Below the pieces are notes generated by a model. It made no database searches. It saw only the letters and a program-made list of their open reading frames with translations, and had not been told where the DNA came from. Positions 8,868 through 52,524 of a stretch of DNA of 64,000 bases are shown here, in pieces. The stretch lies in the NCBI GenBank assembly GCA_026004775.1, contig BPJU01000001.1, forward strand, positions 186,001-250,000, given 5' to 3'. Made by a program: the position numbers and the translations under genes. Source of the DNA: Pirellulaceae bacterium. Lineage in GTDB: Bacteria; Planctomycetota; Planctomycetia; Pirellulales; Pirellulaceae. Within the stretch, counting starts at the first letter, position 1. Each line of letters opens with the position of its first letter.

Positions 8868-11786
8868 TCAATCAAGGGAAGGGAATTCCGCCAGGGCATC
8901 CACGCGGATCGCAGCCTCGTGCGGGCACTCACGCACACAAGCCGGTTGCCGCCCGGGCAGGTCCGAACACAGATCGCACACTACGGCTCGGGCTGCCTGA
9001 AGCTTGAATTGGGCGGCCTGAAGGTCCTCGATAAACTGCCGCGTCAGTTGCGTTACTTGCGGCAACGCTCCCAACCATATCCGCAGGAACGGAGTGTCAT
9101 AGGGTAGTGGCGGCGCCTTTTCCGTCGGCTTTAGCTTCACGCACAGCGTATTACGGCCGGCGGCTAGTCGTTGTGCGTCAATGCGCCCCGAGCCTCGTTC
9201 CAGTTCACATGGCTGTCCATTGAACCACGCCTCCACCTCGCCCACCTTCGTCGTGCACTCGATCACGAAACCCGGCTTGCGCCGCCAACTGGAATCGGCC
9301 CGGAAGTCATACCGGAAACAGAGCGGTTCCAGCAGCCGATCGGCCGATTTCCAATCTCGGCTACAGCGGCTGTGGCGTGCCAACGCCTCGGCCATGTCGG
9401 GCGACCAGTAGAACGGGGCCGCCAACACCGGCCAATTGCCGCAACGGTAGCCGGGTTCCCACCAATGGTCATCCGCCAAAGCGCTTTCGGGGATGACCCG
9501 CCATCCGACCGCCGACTCCGGCACCAATCCCAAATCATGCATCTGGATCGACTCGTAAGGACACTGTCGGGCACACAAGCCGCAGCCGATACACCATTCC
9601 CGGATGACGATCTGCCCATTGTCGCCTCTTTGGATGGAGCCGACCGGACAGCCGATCATGCACAACGGATCGCGACACTGGCGGCAGGCGGCCGGCACGA
9701 GAAAGCGATCGAAGCGAGGTCCGTCCAGATAGAGCCGGGTATGGCCGTCGTCATGGGTATTGATGCACGCGCGGACGCAATCGCCACAGCGCGTACAACG
9801 GTCCAGGTCGATGAGTAACAGTTTTTGCCCCTGAGCCAGCCCCAAATCGCCGAACTCCGGCGTGCCGGTGACTCCCGGGGTACTCAACGGACTGACCACG
9901 GCTCGTTCCTGATCCAATCGCTGGTAGTGCGCTATCTGGGAGCGGACGCGGTCGGCCAAGCGCGGCACGCGTTGTAAAAAGGTGCGGAACGCTTCAGCGG
10001 GGATCCGAACCAACTCCACGCGCGAAGCGGCGCGGCGCTGTTCATCACCCGGATGGTCGTAGGCAATAGCCGCAGCAGTACGCGGCGTCTGGAGCACGAC
10101 TCCCAATTCGCCGAAGCATTCGCCACGGCCAATGTAGCGAATAATCCGAGGCGGAGCAGAGGCTCGGCTGCGCGGGGGAATAAACTCCGGCGCCAATACA
10201 TGCAGCAACTCCCGCCCCGCCGTACGCACCTGCATGTCGCTCCAATCCTTGCCGATCCCGTCCACACCTTTCGGAAAGGCAGCGACTAAAGTCGAAAGGC
10301 CGGGGGACTGCCAAAGCGGTTTTACAGAAGCACCAGCCAACCACTTGCGGTTTCGAGCCAGTTCGTTCAGTGCCTGTGTCAACAACAGGCAATCGTCCGG
10401 ATCGGGTTCGCTGCTGTGGGCAATCCGTTCGACCGCCTGTTGCACCCCGGGAGCCAGCCAATACCAGAGCCAGCCGATCGGGGATAAGCCTCCCGAGGCG
10501 GCCGGTTCACGGACAAGTGCCTCTCTGTCGGCCGCCGGTTCGTCCGAACTTTCCTTGTTGTCGGCCGGCTGCGGTTGAGCTTGCGACGGCTCGGAGGCCG
10601 GTTTGGGAGCAGAAGCGGCGCCCGCTGCCCGCGCACGCGCCAGGATATCCGCCGGGGAAACCGAGCCGGATGGCGCGGGCGGTGGTTGGACGCTCTTATC
10701 GGGCTGGGGCGGCGAGGGACTCGAGTCGGGCGGGCCCGAAGGGGCAGGGGAACCTTCCGGCGCCTTCGCCGAGCGCAGTTTGGCCATCAAAGCCGCGGCC
10801 GCTGATGAGCCTGCCGCCGCCGCCACAGGCTTCTCCTGCTTGGCCTCACACAGCCGCTGGCAAAATGCCGGCAGGCGAGGAATGTGGCGCGGCTTGAGCG
10901 ATACCTCCAAATTCTGGACAATCTGTACAAAGCCACTGCGGACGATATAAGCGGCGTGCGGAGGATCACCCTCCTCGAAAATCACCTCGCCCGGTTGCCG
11001 CACTTCCAACTCCACGTGCGGGCGCAAAAACGAAAGCTCCTCATCCGTCACATCGCTCAAGAATTGCAGCCGTTTCAAATGGCTGTCCAATACCCTTTGC
11101 CGGTAGGCAGCGTCCATCTGCTGCCGGAACGATTCTTCTCGCTGAAGACTATCCAGCACACTGCGCAAAAACTCCACCGCAAAACATTCTCGCTGTGCGA
11201 TGATGGTGGCCGAACGAGGCGTAAACATCAGACAGCTCATTTCGCCGAAAATATCGCCTTCGCAAAGATCGGCTGTCCGGCTGGCGGTGGCTATTTCCAC
11301 AGGAGCGTCCACGGCGATCGTTTCCGGCAGCTTGCTCGATGGTCGCCTGCCCGACCAGAATCGCCACCACGACCGCTTCGGCTCGCGCTCTTCAAAAAAC
11401 AGATAAGCCCTTGCCACCACCGGCCGTTCCGCGCCGTGCGGCAGCGCTTCGAGCTGGGCCAGGTCTTGCTGCCAACGACGGCGGCGCTCTTGAGGCAAAT
11501 CCTCCGGTGCATGCTCCAACTGATACCGCCGCAATTTCAGCATGTCTTCGGCCGGTACCAGGTAGAACGCACTGTTACCCGGTTCTCCCTGCCGGCAGAT
11601 TACTTCGCCCGGGCGGAATCGGCGCAGAACCAGGCTCCCCGGCGCCTCTTCCACCTTGATCTTCCGCTTCAAAGCGCCGAACAACCCGATCTGCGCCAGC
11701 TCCTCGGACGATATGAGTTCGTCGTCGGCGTCGGGAACAAGGTTGGCTTCTGGGTATAAGGGACCGGTACGACCTTTCGCGGCCAT
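8868..11786 (-). CDS. Cyclic-nucleotide-binding domains fused to a multi-cluster 4Fe-4S ferredoxin module
   Basis: 972 residues from the ATG at 11786, chosen because AGGTGG lies about 8 bases upstream; the ATG at 11795 abuts that SD. Two cNMP-binding (CAP_ED) domains are visible, each split by insertions: the first has FRPGEVICRQGEPGNSAF and GDIFGEMSCLMFTPRSATI, the second RQPGEVIFEEGDPPHAAYIV and GRGECFGELGVVLQTPRTAA. A low-complexity Pro/Ala/Ser linker spans ~320-435. Then come Cys sets CxxCxxCxxxC (~664-674), CxxCx4CxxxC (~701-713), CxxCxxCxxxC (~732-742) and, after a ~195-residue insert, CxxCx9CxxxC (~937-954), enough for four 4Fe-4S clusters. The insert contains EVEAWFNGQPC and LAAGRNTLCVKL, like a sugar-binding jelly roll. 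It is probably a cytoplasmic electron-transfer or redox protein gated by cAMP/cGMP. It is divergent from a phosphodiesterase. Confidence 0.85.
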   Translation of the reverse strand: MAAKGRTGPLYPEANLVPDADDELISSEELAQIGLFGALKRKIKVEEAPGSLVLRRFRPGEVICRQGEPGNSAFYLVPAEDMLKLRRYQLEHAPEDLPQERRRRWQQDLAQLEALPHGAERPVVARAYLFFEEREPKRSWWRFWSGRRPSSKLPETIAVDAPVEIATASRTADLCEGDIFGEMSCLMFTPRSATIIAQRECFAVEFLRSVLDSLQREESFRQQMDAAYRQRVLDSHLKRLQFLSDVTDEELSFLRPHVELEVRQPGEVIFEEGDPPHAAYIVRSGFVQIVQNLEVSLKPRHIPRLPAFCQRLCEAKQEKPVAAAAGSSAAAALMAKLRSAKAPEGSPAPSGPPDSSPSPPQPDKSVQPPPAPSGSVSPADILARARAAGAASAPKPASEPSQAQPQPADNKESSDEPAADREALVREPAASGGLSPIGWLWYWLAPGVQQAVERIAHSSEPDPDDCLLLTQALNELARNRKWLAGASVKPLWQSPGLSTLVAAFPKGVDGIGKDWSDMQVRTAGRELLHVLAPEFIPPRSRASAPPRIIRYIGRGECFGELGVVLQTPRTAAAIAYDHPGDEQRRAASRVELVRIPAEAFRTFLQRVPRLADRVRSQIAHYQRLDQERAVVSPLSTPGVTGTPEFGDLGLAQGQKLLLIDLDRCTRCGDCVRACINTHDDGHTRLYLDGPRFDRFLVPAACRQCRDPLCMIGCPVGSIQRGDNGQIVIREWCIGCGLCARQCPYESIQMHDLGLVPESAVGWRVIPESALADDHWWEPGYRCGNWPVLAAPFYWSPDMAEALARHSRCSRDWKSADRLLEPLCFRYDFRADSSWRRKPGFVIECTTKVGEVEAWFNGQPCELERGSGRIDAQRLAAGRNTLCVKLKPTEKAPPLPYDTPFLRIWLGALPQVTQLTRQFIEDLQAAQFKLQAARAVVCDLCSDLPGRQPACVRECPHEAAIRVDALAEFPSLD

Positions 11787-12073
11787 CGTTTGCATCCACC
11801 TGTTTAATATTGACGTGCACGACCAGCAGGGCCATTGTACGTGATGAACGCAGCCAGTAACAGCGCAAGTCAGGCGGCTGCTCTGCGATGCTCAGCCGTC
11901 CCGTGCCATGATTGACCGCCAGCCACGGGAAAGGAGCCGGGCTGACTTTACGCCTTCCCTGATTGGGCTGCCGGGGGTGTCTCTACCGTTTAATACCCAA
12001 CCCAGTCATACTATCTATTGGCGGATGCACGAGCGAACCTGCCGCCGGTGTGCATTGTGGCGGAGCACCTTCT

Positions 12074-12826
12074 ATGAGAATCCACATTGTGGCTACTGCC
12101 GAAAGTCAGCCCCACCAATCGCTCACCACGCTCGTGGTGGACGAAACCGTGGCGTTGGATGCCGGCTGTTTGGTGCAATTGCCTCTGGCGGCACAGCGGC
12201 GTATCGAGCATGTGGTGTTGACGCACGCCCACATGGATCACATCGCCAGCCTGCCGATGTTCCTGGACAATGTCTATGAGTTTGGCCCGCGGTGCCCGAG
12301 CGTTTACGCATCGCGGGAGACATTGAACGCGATGAGCCAACACCTGTTCAATGACGCTCTTTGGCCCAATGTCATGGCACTGGGGGCGGCCGAAAGCCCG
12401 TTTGTGCGATTTGTCGAGCTGCCGGCCGAGTCGCCTGTGGCCATCGGCGAGCTATCGGTCACCGCCGTGCCGCTGTCGCACCCGATACCCACGTACGGGC
12501 TCGTGCTGGAACGAGACGGCCGGCGAGCAGCACTGCTTACCGACACCGGTCCTACCCATCGAATCTGGGAAGTTCTGTCGTCAAAGCCGCCCCACCTGTT
12601 ACTGATCGATGTAAGTTTTCCCAATCGGCTAAGTGGCTTGGCGGAAAGGTCCGGGCATCTGTCGCCGAAACTGTTGTGCTGTGAACTGCAGAAGCTACCT
12701 CATGTCGTACCTACTCTCGCCATACACATCAAACCGCCGTTTTATGACGAGGTGGTGCGCGAGATCGAACAGCTCAATCTCCCCCACGTGACCGCAGCGC
12801 GGTTGGGGGAAACCTACCAGGTGTAG
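12074..12826 (+). CDS. Class II 3',5'-cyclic-nucleotide phosphodiesterase (metallo-beta-lactamase fold)
   Basis: 250 residues. The ATG at 12074 has GGAG eight bases upstream; the open frame extends further upstream without protein-like character. The metal site HxHxDH is present as HAHMDH, and later metal ligands appear in PLSHPIPTYG, LLTDTGPT and AIHIKP. The pattern (TSFLVDE-like strand, DAGC, VLTHAHMDHIASLP, GHLSP) matches the yeast PDE1/bacterial CpdP class II phosphodiesterases, which hydrolyse cAMP or cGMP to 5'-NMP. No signal peptide is evident, so it should be cytoplasmic. It is transcribed away from the cNMP-binding iron-sulfur gene with 287 bases between starts, so the two may share control. 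A generic MBL-fold hydrolase is the alternative. Confidence 0.8.
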   Translation: MRIHIVATAESQPHQSLTTLVVDETVALDAGCLVQLPLAAQRRIEHVVLTHAHMDHIASLPMFLDNVYEFGPRCPSVYASRETLNAMSQHLFNDALWPNVMALGAAESPFVRFVELPAESPVAIGELSVTAVPLSHPIPTYGLVLERDGRRAALLTDTGPTHRIWEVLSSKPPHLLLIDVSFPNRLSGLAERSGHLSPKLLCCELQKLPHVVPTLAIHIKPPFYDEVVREIEQLNLPHVTAARLGETYQV

Positions 12827-30495: not shown

Positions 30496-32634
30496 TCATG
30501 GAACCGGGCTGTGCTGGGCGTTCAAAATCGGTACAAGCTCACTTTCTGCCTGGCGTATCAATCGCTGGCGGTCGTCGTAGCTACAGAATGCTGCGCGGAA
30601 CCCGTTACGAATCAGGTGCAAGACTTCCCACCGTGTCAAACCGCCTGGGGTAATGTCGGCGGCCCGCAAGAACTCATCCGACAGCGACGTACGTGAGATG
30701 CCCGGATTATCCGTATTGATCGTCGTTCGTATTCCGCTCTCCATATAGAGCCGCAACGGGTAGGGCCGCTGCCCGTCGCGTTGCATCGGGCAGTCCCGCC
30801 CATAACCGACAATCTGGTCATTGCTCGACGGACATAGCTCAATGGCGACAGCACGGTCCCGCAGTTTGGACATCAGCTCGCAGTCTTCGGCAAGTGACAG
30901 GCCATGCCCTACCCGGTCGGCACACAGATGGTAGACCGCTTCCCAGACATTCTTGACGCTGACTCCTTCGCCGGCGTGTACGGTTATCCGAACCACGTTT
31001 TCCATCAGTGGCAAGAATTCATCGCGGAGCCGGCTGGGCGGCAAAGCCCGCTCGTCTCCCGCCAAATCAAATCCTACGAATCGTTGGCGGAATGAATCGC
31101 GACCGAGCCACTTGCGGACAAGACGAATATGTTCTTTCACTTTTTCCATCCGCCGGTGGCGGCTTGCGATGAATATCAGCCGCAAATCGACTGGCCGCAC
31201 GCCATCTGCGGTAAACCGGGACGATTCGTCTAACAGCACTTCGATCACCTCGTCTTCGCTCATCGACCCGCGCGTGTAATTCCATGGCGAACAGCGAAGC
31301 TCAAGATATCGGATGTTATCTTCGCGGCAATGGTTCCGCAGGATACGGAGTGCCGCCCGAAGCGTTTCTTCACATTGCAACAACCCGGAACCTTGAAGGT
31401 CGCCCAGCGATTCGTAGGTGGCGAATCCAACCCCGCGGAATCGGCTACTGTCCCGAAACGGGCCATAGATCAGTTCGTCCAGTAACTCCTCGGCCTGCTC
31501 GAACACCAAAAGAAAGCCCGCCACACCAAAAGGTTCTGGAACGCCCGGCCATCGCTTTCTTAAACGTTTCCAGCGATCCGTATTCTCTCCCAGGAATTGG
31601 TTCAACCTGTTGGTATCCGCGTTTTCCACCGCCTTTCGCAGTTCGTCCAGTGCATCGCGATACTGCTCGATTTTGTTGCGGTAACTTTCGATCTGGGAGC
31701 GGCACGAGCCGGCGACTTCCACCATTTCTTTGGGAGAAAGCAGTCCGCCCAAGTGACAATGCAATTCGGCTTTCGGCAACATGCGCAGCCACTGCCGATC
31801 CTTTTGGCGGCCTTCGGGATCGGCGCCTATCCGCAGATGCTGTAACGTTCGGATCAGCCGGGGCGAAAAAACGTAGACGGCGCGAAAGCTCCCTACTTGA
31901 GGCGTATGAACAACGTCAGCTACCAAGTGGGCATACGCTTGGCTGCTGTTTTGGAGCGCGCGTTGCACCTCGCAATACAGTCGGTCGGAACCAGTGACGG
32001 CGCCTTCAGGAGGCAACGGGAATTGCTCGCTGTTTATTGACGGCGCTGCTTCCATCACCGCCAAAGGCGCTACGCGGCGCGACAACACCACCGGTTCGAC
32101 ATAGTCGGCGACAACCGAAGGCAGTTCGCGGGCAATTATTTCGGGCGTCAATTCCTGGTGCTGCTTGCGAATCTCAGGCGGCGCGGAGTGCAACATATCC
32201 AGCACATGCAGTAGCGCATCCATGCCGAAGACATAGCCTGCCTGCTGGAGTTCGGCACTCATCGTCTTGCGGCCGCCTGCAAGCGATAAGTACACTTCTC
32301 GGAACGCTTGCCGGGCACACAGCACCACGCGATAGATCAAATCGGCCAGGTAGCGGTTATTCTCCTCGGAGTCAACGTCGTCGATGCCCTCCACCCACCA
32401 AGCTTTTAACGGAACGCCCGCCTCCTTGGCCCATTGGCGGAGCATCCCTAATGACTCTTGCGTGCGTCGATCCTGTGTCGTAACCACCCAGATGGCCTCC
32501 ACCGGAGGGAGGCTGGATCGGGGCCATTGGCCGCGGCTTCGACGAGCGGGCAAGCTGTCCGGATTTGTGAAAGCGAAGATTTCCGGTACCACGAGCCACG
32601 TGGTGCCCAGCGTATTGACAAGCACGGCGTTCAT
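30496..32634 (-). CDS. cad1: CARF domain-adenosine deaminase fusion (Cad1 type CRISPR ancillary effector)
   Basis: 712 residues. The ATG at 32634 has AAAGGGG six bases upstream; an in-frame TTG at 32649 is less likely. The N-terminal ~190 residues are a CARF domain: strand MNAVLVNTLGTTWLVVPE, VEAIWVVTTQD, and the ligand loop LAGGRKTMSAELQQAGYVFG (GGRKxM, typical of Csx/Csm6-type sensors of cyclic oligoadenylate). A spacer (~190-280) leads to a full adenosine/AMP deaminase domain: HxH in ELHCHLGG (H292/H294), HAGEG (H553/E556), VGHG (H577) and NTDNP (D642), so all metal and catalytic residues are present. In characterised Cad1, cOA binding triggers ATP-to-ITP deamination in type III CRISPR defence. 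No cas gene is visible in the window. It is divergent from a ceramidase-like gene. Confidence 0.85.
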   Translation of the reverse strand: MNAVLVNTLGTTWLVVPEIFAFTNPDSLPARRSRGQWPRSSLPPVEAIWVVTTQDRRTQESLGMLRQWAKEAGVPLKAWWVEGIDDVDSEENNRYLADLIYRVVLCARQAFREVYLSLAGGRKTMSAELQQAGYVFGMDALLHVLDMLHSAPPEIRKQHQELTPEIIARELPSVVADYVEPVVLSRRVAPLAVMEAAPSINSEQFPLPPEGAVTGSDRLYCEVQRALQNSSQAYAHLVADVVHTPQVGSFRAVYVFSPRLIRTLQHLRIGADPEGRQKDRQWLRMLPKAELHCHLGGLLSPKEMVEVAGSCRSQIESYRNKIEQYRDALDELRKAVENADTNRLNQFLGENTDRWKRLRKRWPGVPEPFGVAGFLLVFEQAEELLDELIYGPFRDSSRFRGVGFATYESLGDLQGSGLLQCEETLRAALRILRNHCREDNIRYLELRCSPWNYTRGSMSEDEVIEVLLDESSRFTADGVRPVDLRLIFIASRHRRMEKVKEHIRLVRKWLGRDSFRQRFVGFDLAGDERALPPSRLRDEFLPLMENVVRITVHAGEGVSVKNVWEAVYHLCADRVGHGLSLAEDCELMSKLRDRAVAIELCPSSNDQIVGYGRDCPMQRDGQRPYPLRLYMESGIRTTINTDNPGISRTSLSDEFLRAADITPGGLTRWEVLHLIRNGFRAAFCSYDDRQRLIRQAESELVPILNAQHSPVP

Positions 32635-32775
32635 TGCGGCCCCTTTCAAAAAACGGACAATGGCACGGACCGAAGGCGGATGGCCGGAGGGCGTGCCTCG
32701 CGCTTGCCACCGGATTATGGTAGGATGAGGTAACTATGAGGAAAAGCCTGCCTGGGAGTTATCTACGGGAGGTGC

Positions 32776-50830: not shown

Positions 50831-52417
50831 TCAGAGGGTGGGCAGGATGCGCGTGTCGGCGAATCGGCCGATGGCATCGCGCAGATCACCCGTGCCGCCG
50901 CAGTCGGGGCAGGCCGGTTCATCGTCGTGCGCCGCACGCGGCACTTGCGGCAGCCAGACGGCCTCATCGCAAAACAGCCGCTCGTGATCGGCTCCCTCCA
51001 GCACTTTGGCAAATACCGGTAGATCCAATTGCGGATCCATACGGATCTGGACAAGATTGCGGTGAGCTATCTGTTCCAGCCAACGGGTCCAGCGGGGGTG
51101 ATTGGTTCCGTAGTGTAGCAGAGCCAGAGCGATAAAGCCTTTGATGGCGTTGAGTCGTCCGGTACTGAAAATGGGGGTGCCGCGACTGGATATCTCCGGC
51201 CGGTAACCGGACAGATAGGCGTCATAGCGCATTTTGAGAATGCAGCGGTGGCAGGCGGGTGTTATGCCGGGGTAGGTGAAGGTCACCTCGGCCCCGCGAC
51301 CTTCGGCGTAGAGCTGTGCGCAGAGGCTGGGCAGACCAAACTGCAATGCCAGCCGATTGATGCGCGCTTGAGCAAAAAAATCATCGGTAAAACCGCACAA
51401 AAGGCTCTGACGCGGTTGTACGGTGAGGTTGGCCGGTATGTCCAGGCCGGAGATCCCCCAGTAATCAGCCAATGCGACCGACCAGCGCCGAAGCGGGCGG
51501 ACCAAGATACGGTAAAAGCATTCGTCGTCCAACTCGTCCAGACGCCGGGCAAGCGGCAGCACCTTGATCCAGGGGTTGATCTGTTTGAGTCGTCGAGCCA
51601 GTTGCCGCACTTTGCTCTTGCCCAAGTCACGCAGATAGACCTGTTGCGTGGCCAGGTTTGTTTCGGTGACCAGATCCGGATCGATCAGGACGAAATCACC
51701 GACACCGCTGCGTGCCAAATCTTCTACGAAGGAAGCGGCGCCGCCGACTCCTACGACAATCACACGGCTCAGTGCCATGCGCCGCAAATCCACCGCGTCT
51801 TGCAGTCGGGCGAAGATATCGCCCACGGCCCCGGCACGCGGCAGCGAGCCGCCAGCCAAGACGTTGCGGAAGCCTTCGCCGACCGGCTCCTCGTCGTCTT
51901 CCAACGAGCAGGATTCCGGCTCATCCGGCGGCACAACCTCCAAACGCATCGGCTGGCACGCCTCTACCCCCGCAACACCCCGGACCACCCGGTACGCGTA
52001 TATGCCGAACGGTGCCCCGTCGATGGGACTTTGCACGATCGGCAAATAGAACTGGTCCAGCCACGGGTTGTGGTCCAGGATGGTTTGGGCGTACTGGATG
52101 TCGTAGACCGACGGCCACGTACAGCCTCGCGGCTGCGAATGCACAAAACCGAGCATCCGCACACCGTTTGGGTTCCAGATGCGGGCCAACAACTGGTTGA
52201 GCCTTCCGTGATCGGGGGAGTACGACCCGCGAGAGGTTTCGGCGTGACGATCAAAATAATAGTGGCTTATCAATTCCGACGGCGGGCGACCGCCCAGAAT
52301 ACCCCCTTGTTCGGCGGGCAACCGGCCGATGGTCAGTCGGATGTGATCGTAGACGTCGGCTGTCATCCGCAGGACGGCTTCTGTTTGCGGAGCTGGCCGA
52401 CGTAAGGGACTTTCCAT
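50831..52417 (-). CDS. JAB-domain plus ThiF/E1-like adenylyltransferase fusion
   Basis: 528 residues. The ATG at 52417 has GGTGAG about eight bases upstream. An N-terminal JAB/MPN fold (~15-145) has EQGGILGG (E36) and HSQPRGCTWPSVYD, spaced exactly as H-x-H-x7-S-x2-D but with Gln (Q95) for the second metal His. Residues ~215-330 are an E1/ThiF Rossmann fold: VIVVGVGGAASFVEDLA, VLIDPDLVTETNLATQQVYL, in which the usual NxxRQ is NLATQ. C391/C394 and C503/C506 could bind zinc. E1-like proteins adenylate the C-terminus of a ubiquitin-like partner, and JAB domains cut it. No beta-grasp protein or E2 was identified beside it. The membrane protein gene upstream (52525-52995) is co-directional with a 107-base gap. 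Confidence 0.8.
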   Translation of the reverse strand: MESPLRRPAPQTEAVLRMTADVYDHIRLTIGRLPAEQGGILGGRPPSELISHYYFDRHAETSRGSYSPDHGRLNQLLARIWNPNGVRMLGFVHSQPRGCTWPSVYDIQYAQTILDHNPWLDQFYLPIVQSPIDGAPFGIYAYRVVRGVAGVEACQPMRLEVVPPDEPESCSLEDDEEPVGEGFRNVLAGGSLPRAGAVGDIFARLQDAVDLRRMALSRVIVVGVGGAASFVEDLARSGVGDFVLIDPDLVTETNLATQQVYLRDLGKSKVRQLARRLKQINPWIKVLPLARRLDELDDECFYRILVRPLRRWSVALADYWGISGLDIPANLTVQPRQSLLCGFTDDFFAQARINRLALQFGLPSLCAQLYAEGRGAEVTFTYPGITPACHRCILKMRYDAYLSGYRPEISSRGTPIFSTGRLNAIKGFIALALLHYGTNHPRWTRWLEQIAHRNLVQIRMDPQLDLPVFAKVLEGADHERLFCDEAVWLPQVPRAAHDDEPACPDCGGTGDLRDAIGRFADTRILPTL

Positions 52418-52524
52418 CGCAGATCTCACCAAGCCGAGGTAATCGTCAAGTTTGTGTACTTACCGGTCAGCGGCCGTCCGGCGGGAAGCGGTGCGTTGGA
52501 CACGATGGCTGGCGCTGGTACCGG

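Follow-up and report, generated by a model that had tools for sequence, protein, structure and literature searches.

How would a single polypeptide come to combine cyclic-nucleotide sensors with a set of iron-sulfur clusters, and what might such a protein do? The question is raised by a gene in the window, by which we mean the whole 64,000-nucleotide stretch of Pirellulaceae DNA analyzed here (contig BPJU01000001.1 of assembly GCA_026004775.1, positions 186,001 to 250,000). An open reading frame (ORF) of full length on the minus strand, 8868-11795, encodes 975 residues in which two cyclic nucleotide-binding (CNB) domains (cNMP_binding, PF00027, 88.6 bits against a Pfam cut-off of 27.5) precede four Cys sets of the 4Fe-4S type, with several Fer4 families also over their cut-offs. 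Pfam and the Cys positions thus confirm the central statement of a preliminary description of this gene, that two CNB domains and four Cys sets are joined in one chain. From the sequence of this protein and the genes linked to its relatives, we cautiously favor cyclic-nucleotide control of an electron carrier that operates within a transmembrane chain. Residues are numbered throughout from the ATG at 11795. The gene itself probably extends over 8868-11786 and encodes 972 residues, because an upstream AGGTGG, judged by eye, fits better with the second ATG at 11786; the gene is real, and this likelier start is the boundary that had been given for it. Its parts, all on the minus strand, are as follows.

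8868-11795, minus: CNB-ferredoxin gene, 975 residues (probable start 11786, 972 residues)
11139-11720, minus: CNB-A, residues ~26-219, with a ~94-residue insertion after 80; cassette FGEMSC...PRSAT, Glu185/Arg194
10896-11135, minus: N-terminal half of CNB-B, residues ~221-300
10485-10820, minus: disordered Pro/Ala/Ser-rich linker within CNB-B, residues ~326-437, with the short motif SPADILARARAAGA at 380
10194-10484, minus: helical insertion continuing the CNB-B insertion, residues 438-534
9894-10151, minus: C-terminal half of CNB-B, residues 549-634; cassette FGELGVV...PRTA, Glu563/Arg572
9531-9830, minus: 4Fe-4S Cys sets I-III, residues ~656-755
9060-9530, minus: jelly-roll insert of the galactose-binding-like type found in glycoside hydrolase family 2 (GH2), residues 756-912
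8898-8987, minus: 4Fe-4S Cys set IV, residues 937-966

The four Cys sets lie at residues 667/670/673/677 (I), 704/707/712/716 (II), 735/738/741/745 (III) and 940/943/953/957 (IV), and each of the 16 Cys is kept in all 42 aligned members of the family. The gap from set III to set IV is 194 residues, close to the figure of about 195 first reported. We compared this spacing across 116 distinct loci, the set on which all per-locus counts below are based, with contig ends included as they are; it comprises 40 fetched neighborhoods, 80 of 159 confirmed loci from named genomes and the window, 121 in total, minus five duplicates. The spacing is two-peaked, at 27-60 residues in 68 loci and 174-220 in 21 insert-bearing ones; the remaining 27 are unclassed because their Cys pattern is not readable through one ORF. 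Together with the invariance of the 16 Cys, the two peaks argue that the layout is not due to chance.

Structure prediction suggests how the separated sets fit together. The ferredoxin part was poor in a first, whole-protein model built from 42 sequences, in which the predicted local distance difference test (pLDDT), averaged over 10-residue blocks, was mostly 43-59. A second model, of residues 639-971 and built from 63 sequences, reached a pLDDT of 87.3 and a predicted template modeling score of 0.80. In the latter, the ferredoxin module matches HycB of the Escherichia coli formate hydrogenlyase (7z0s_B, Z 14.6, 154 residues, root-mean-square deviation [rmsd] 5.7) and HycB3 (7qv7_A, Z 14.3, 140 residues, rmsd 3.7). 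The HycB-type alignments span model positions 18-330 or 18-333, corresponding to residues 656-971 with the insert included. Because these chains align straight across the insert, sets I-III and set IV are predicted to form one four-cluster HycB-type fold, with the insert looping out between III and IV; the pairing of Cys sets across the insert, put forward as a check on the preliminary description, is based on this structural alignment. The insert is itself folded in the second model (pLDDT 90-97), and neither of the outcomes named as contrary to that description, a disordered insert or Cys sets that do not form ferredoxin folds, occurred. Many of the best NCBIfam matches likewise belong to the HycB/HydN/NrfC/DmsB group, and all 25 listed scores against named-subunit equivalogs (DmsB, HydN, ArrB and others) are under cut-off, that for DmsB being 45.9 against 214.1 bits.

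The sensor half of the protein is conserved in its cassettes. Glu185 and Arg194 of the CNB-A phosphate-binding cassette are each kept in 41 of the 42 aligned members, and Glu563 and Arg572 of CNB-B in 38; among 20 insert-bearing members, the respective counts are 19, 20, 20 and 20. A Ser or Thr after the cassette Arg permits cyclic AMP (cAMP) or cyclic GMP (cGMP), and one is found there in CNB-A of 41 and CNB-B of 24 of the 42 members. Model residues 224-631, linker included, align with one CNB domain each of PKG, PKA and MlotiK (Z up to 19.5; rmsd 1.8-3.0 over 130-148 residues in the best seven matches), which places the linker inside CNB-B. The disorder ascribed to the linker in the preliminary description was upheld by pLDDT values below 50 at residues 326-337 and 340-427 of the whole-protein model, whereas its placement between domains was not.

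The insert between sets III and IV had been likened to the sugar-binding domains of glycoside hydrolases, partly from two quoted motifs that are both present, EVEAWFNGQPC among them, and this kinship is borne out by profile and by fold. Structural alignment of the modeled insert with N-terminal GH2 domains yields Z scores of 12-13 (12.9 for 5t99_A, over 135 residues with an rmsd of 2.9), and Foldseek gives E ~1e-6 against the same group. A profile of 20 inserts finds, from sequence alone, rhamnosidase 3w5m (7e-5), beta-galactosidases and mannosidases in the Protein Data Bank. The window's own insert matches no Pfam family; Glyco_hydro_2_N is matched by 4 of the 20 members and Glyco_hydro_2_N2 by 1. 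Applied to the genome of the window, the profile has only one other match (E 2.3e-4), the C-terminal domain of a GH2-like frame whose enzyme name we read from its sequence, and among ORFs of the fetched loci it matches only carriers and one LTD/CotH protein. The insert is an accessory, a sister clade being without it. Most likely, the jelly roll offers a surface for docking or regulation between Cys sets III and IV; a sugar ligand, though possible, is unsupported.

The combination of modules is not a one-off, since it belongs to a family with at least 116 distinct loci; of the 116 compared, 21 bear the insert. With the P0001 query, matches at E 0.001 occur in 82 of 98 related genomes, many of them to plain ferredoxins; at 41 places, the E value is 1.3e-24 or better. 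One carrier comes from a named strain, Singulisphaera acidiphila DSM 18658 (L131:9944-13333). Among the matches listed, the family is found mostly in Planctomycetota and also in metagenome-assembled genomes (MAGs) labeled Verrucomicrobia, Acidobacteria and Deltaproteobacteria; no relatives were found in viral contigs. On a tree of 89 carriers, the distribution of the insert needs at least two changes, and none of 500 shuffles was as low. A single origin without loss is rejected by that same count, and the history is most simply read as one gain and one loss, the loss falling in a clade of 24.

Several family members depart from the layout in the window. At L033:6911-10877 (genome G019), which sits on a long branch of the carrier tree in an unsure position, the carrier is split into two ORFs; only CNB-A lies on the first, and the second joins ferredoxin and insert to an FHA-like domain that scores below cut-off (18.6 bits) and a degenerate second CNB half. 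The carrier at L037:5761-8328, like those of six similar loci linked to a NuoE-NuoF fusion, seems by eye to have an N-terminal NuoG-like part of the 2Fe-2S and 4Fe-4S type, and one chain of this type would carry more clusters than the window protein in addition to two CNB domains. One Planctomycetaceae MAG has two adjacent carrier-like ORFs of 961 and 943 residues (L154:8318-13964).

What the carrier might serve is suggested by its neighbors across the family. A transmembrane di-heme cytochrome b is present in 93 of the 116 loci and multihaem cytochromes c in 97. Less often, the carrier is linked to a class III cyclase (18 loci), an NqrF-like reductase (25) or a NuoE-NuoF fusion (12). In 15 control stretches, made up of 12 phosphodiesterase loci and three pieces of the window, cytochromes b and c were both absent and the single cyclase-like match was without Pfam support. 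Of 32 listed cyclases in carrier genomes, 13 lie within 15 kb of a carrier (expected 0.14). The four His of the cytochrome b, arranged in two HX13H pairs that we take to be the NOX/ferric reductase pattern, are kept in 59, 60, 61 and 61 of 62 sequences; the protein has ~280 residues, scores 17.1 bits for Ferric_reduct against a cut-off of 28 and has no flavin domain match. The linked cyclases retain both metal Asp residues (22 of 22 each), the Arg (22 of 22) and the Asn (20 of 22), and some bear FHA and/or GAF domains. The 21 insert-bearing loci include cytochrome b in 13, cytochromes c in 13 and cyclase in 7, and in G003 an insert-bearing carrier has as neighbors a cyclase, a cytochrome b and a trio of cytochromes c (10, 4 and 5 CXXCH motifs).

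Further sequence features were noted in the same loci. The linker motif SPADILARARAAGA of the window protein fits a pattern S-x-x-[DE]-[IL]-[LM]-x-x-[AQK] that recurs in the carrier linkers of L031 (two copies), L114, L115 and L117, and related SPLELMKQQAAAKKA-like repeats (six copies in L133) occur where the cytochrome b linkers of the insert-less clade are enlarged. The shared S-x-x-[DE]-[IL]-[LM] core is possibly a docking motif. We considered that the jelly roll had moved to the enlarged cytochrome b of that clade and rejected this, since the insert profile picks out nothing in the fetched loci beyond carriers and the LTD/CotH protein; the enlargement is repetitive linker.

Gene linkage and cofactors suggest an order for the electron chain. 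A cytoplasmic reductant, NAD(P)H acting through a flavin/Fe-S dehydrogenase, would supply the four clusters of the cytoplasmic carrier, which would in turn reduce the cytochrome b through its two HX13H pairs and, beyond it, the extracytoplasmic multihaem cytochromes. That a cyclic nucleotide gates this flow is suggested by the CNB-ferredoxin fusion, the conserved cassettes and the linked cyclases. We propose that an FHA-GAF cyclase makes the nucleotide and that its binding to CNB-A and CNB-B may move helix 611-634, which leads into the first ferredoxin strand (658-663); such a movement would change how the cluster module docks on the dehydrogenase or cytochrome b. Ending the signal could fall to the phosphodiesterase-like enzyme encoded next door. 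The complete version, with a transmembrane conduit of dehydrogenase, carrier, NOX-like cytochrome b and cytochromes c in which the carrier is allosterically switched by a messenger that enzymes of the same gene clusters make and destroy, with the jelly roll as a further input or docking module, would amount to a new kind of control over energy metabolism; it is more doubtful, and we offer it tentatively.

Several observations weigh against nucleotide-gated electron transfer. The window carrier stands apart from cytochromes and cyclase, and its sole linked partner is the phosphodiesterase-like gene; 5 of the 21 insert-bearing loci, this one included, show neither type of cytochrome nor a cyclase. 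All 21 are also without a linked dehydrogenase of the NqrF or NuoEF type, and linkage to a cyclase is limited to 18 of the 116. The preliminary description had called for a genome search for partner reductases, and none was identified as a donor dehydrogenase in the window's genome, where matches to the NuoEF query look like complex I NuoE/F and matches to the NqrF query are weak. In favor of such control, the main parts are all in this genome, although scattered. A cytochrome b at C2:438482-439330, with no Ferric_reduct match in Pfam, is clustered with cytochromes of 10, 5 and 4 CXXCH motifs, and a GAF-cyclase is encoded on contig C25 (59.7 bits against a cut-off of 21.9).

The remaining partner is a divergently transcribed gene upstream of the carrier.

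12074-12826, plus: metallo-beta-lactamase-fold phosphodiesterase gene (PDEase_II), probable ATG 12074, 250 residues, frame open from 11963; resembles PhnP
11787-12073, no strand: shared divergent intergenic region, ~290 bp, in which a promoter scan found no sigma-70 consensus

Its product scores 49.5 bits for PDEase_II against a cut-off of 23.7, over positions 80-161 of the 340-position profile only, and Lactamase_B_2 outscores PDEase_II; it is the only gene over the PDEase_II cut-off in the genome. Two further points count against its part in the proposed signal: its match to PhnP (8e-7) is slightly better than that to yeast PDE1 (7.5e-6), and a phosphodiesterase-like gene is linked to the carrier in only 2 of the 116 loci, rare enough that we rejected it as a conserved partner. 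The other case is G032, in which a similar gene lies beside a cyclase within the carrier's cluster; G016 looked like a third but was dropped, because no Pfam family matches the neighboring gene first taken for a cyclase. Where the genome has a listed carrier, 2 of 11 over-cut-off PDEase_II genes lie within 15 kb of it (expected 0.05), a comparison whose statistics are weak because it was designed after the adjacency had been noticed. With linkage in 2 loci and PhnP an equally good or better relative, a role for this gene as signal partner is suggestive only.

Could the same modules work in another way? The CNB domains might instead use the linker and the jelly roll to control how the cytochrome complex is assembled, recruited to the membrane or stabilized, without direct gating. 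The long disordered linker within CNB-B, the surface character of the jelly roll and the occurrence of related S-x-x-[DE]-[IL]-[LM] motifs both in certain carrier linkers and in those of enlarged cytochrome b subunits from other species would all suit such a function, which we nevertheless regard as unlikely because a single helix joins CNB-B to the ferredoxin module, favoring direct coupling, and basal members of the family are without linker and without jelly roll. The signal might also run in reverse, with the state of the Fe-S module, as a redox sensor, acting on the CNB domains; the protein would then inform cyclic-nucleotide signaling of electron pressure and not be a wire. A feedback loop of this kind is made possible by the FHA and/or GAF input domains on some linked cyclases, and the FHA-like domain on the ferredoxin ORF of L033 is in keeping with it, but four complete HycB-type cluster sites exceed the need of a sensor, and linkage to cytochromes b and c (93 and 97 of 116) is far commoner than to a cyclase (18); we think this quite unlikely.

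Two further explanations concern the insert and the isolated position of the gene. The stronger reading in the preliminary description, that the jelly roll is a carbohydrate-binding input through which a sugar or glycan also gates the carrier, draws on the GH2-type kinship in profile and fold. Jelly-roll domains in glycoside hydrolases often bind no sugar themselves, however, and alignment of the insert region from 20 members shows only 10 invariant positions, most of them structural to the eye; together with the insert-less sister clade, this makes a sugar input very improbable. We give even less credence to the view that the window gene, its partners lost, survives as an orphaned paralogue in decay: it does not adjoin cytochromes or cyclase, yet its 16 Cys and four cassette residues are intact, its frame is full length, and a cytochrome b, three multihaem cytochromes c and a cyclase are present elsewhere in the genome. 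Cyclic-nucleotide control of the carrier is the reading that we retain.

Two other genes of the window deserve mention in their own right. The first (30496-32649, minus strand) encodes a 717-residue fusion of a CARF domain (Cas_NE0113) with adenosine deaminase (PADLOC CARF5--CARF_ADA, 633 bits; Pfam A_deaminase, 170 bits), resembling the Cad1-type effectors of type III CRISPR systems; no Cas genes were recognized by eye among the window's listed ORFs. The second (50831-52432, minus strand) encodes a 533-residue protein in which a ThiF/E1 domain (60 bits) is accompanied by a weak JAB domain, similar to the E1 parts of bacterial ubiquitin-like systems. The carrier itself was not assigned to a defense system, as the PADLOC matches of its CNB part to PycTIR/TIR effectors are no more than weak (E 4e-4).

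Second messengers control transcription, channels and kinases, and we know of none that acts directly on a soluble electron carrier. If our proposal is correct, cAMP or cGMP would act as a posttranslational switch for respiration or extracellular electron transfer in a large, physiologically little-known phylum. It would also give cyclic nucleotides and cyclases a role in Planctomycetota, with a compact gene set for testing. In line with the preliminary description, which saw no obvious precedent among characterized proteins, we found nothing on a CNB-ferredoxin family in the open literature, most subscription journals lying outside the search, and the family is apparently undescribed. The accessible part of one paper counts two CbcL-type homologues in Planctomycetes and makes no mention of "cyclic" (PMC6295460).

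Every module of the system is known, and the combination is new as far as the open literature shows. The window protein shares the four Cys sets and overall fold of HycB-, HydN-, NrfC- and DmsB-type subunits. It adds to that plan an N-terminal pair of CNB domains and a jelly roll of 157 residues that separates set III from set IV, and its scores remain far under the equivalog cut-offs. With the tandem CNB domains of PKA regulatory subunits and PKG, and with bacterial MlotiK, SthK, Crp and PycTIR, it has in common the CNB fold and the Glu/Arg cassette; it differs from them in that its output is a ferredoxin, both CNB domains contain long insertions, and CNB-B is split by ~250 residues. The insert is like the N-terminal, galactose-binding-like jelly rolls of GH2 enzymes in profile and fold but sits in a non-enzyme without a signal peptide recognizable by eye and without a Pfam match. 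Finally, the linked cytochrome b shares its two HX13H pairs with NOX and ferric reductase cytochromes, from which it differs in having no flavin domain, in scoring under the Ferric_reduct cut-off and in being paired with multihaem cytochromes c.

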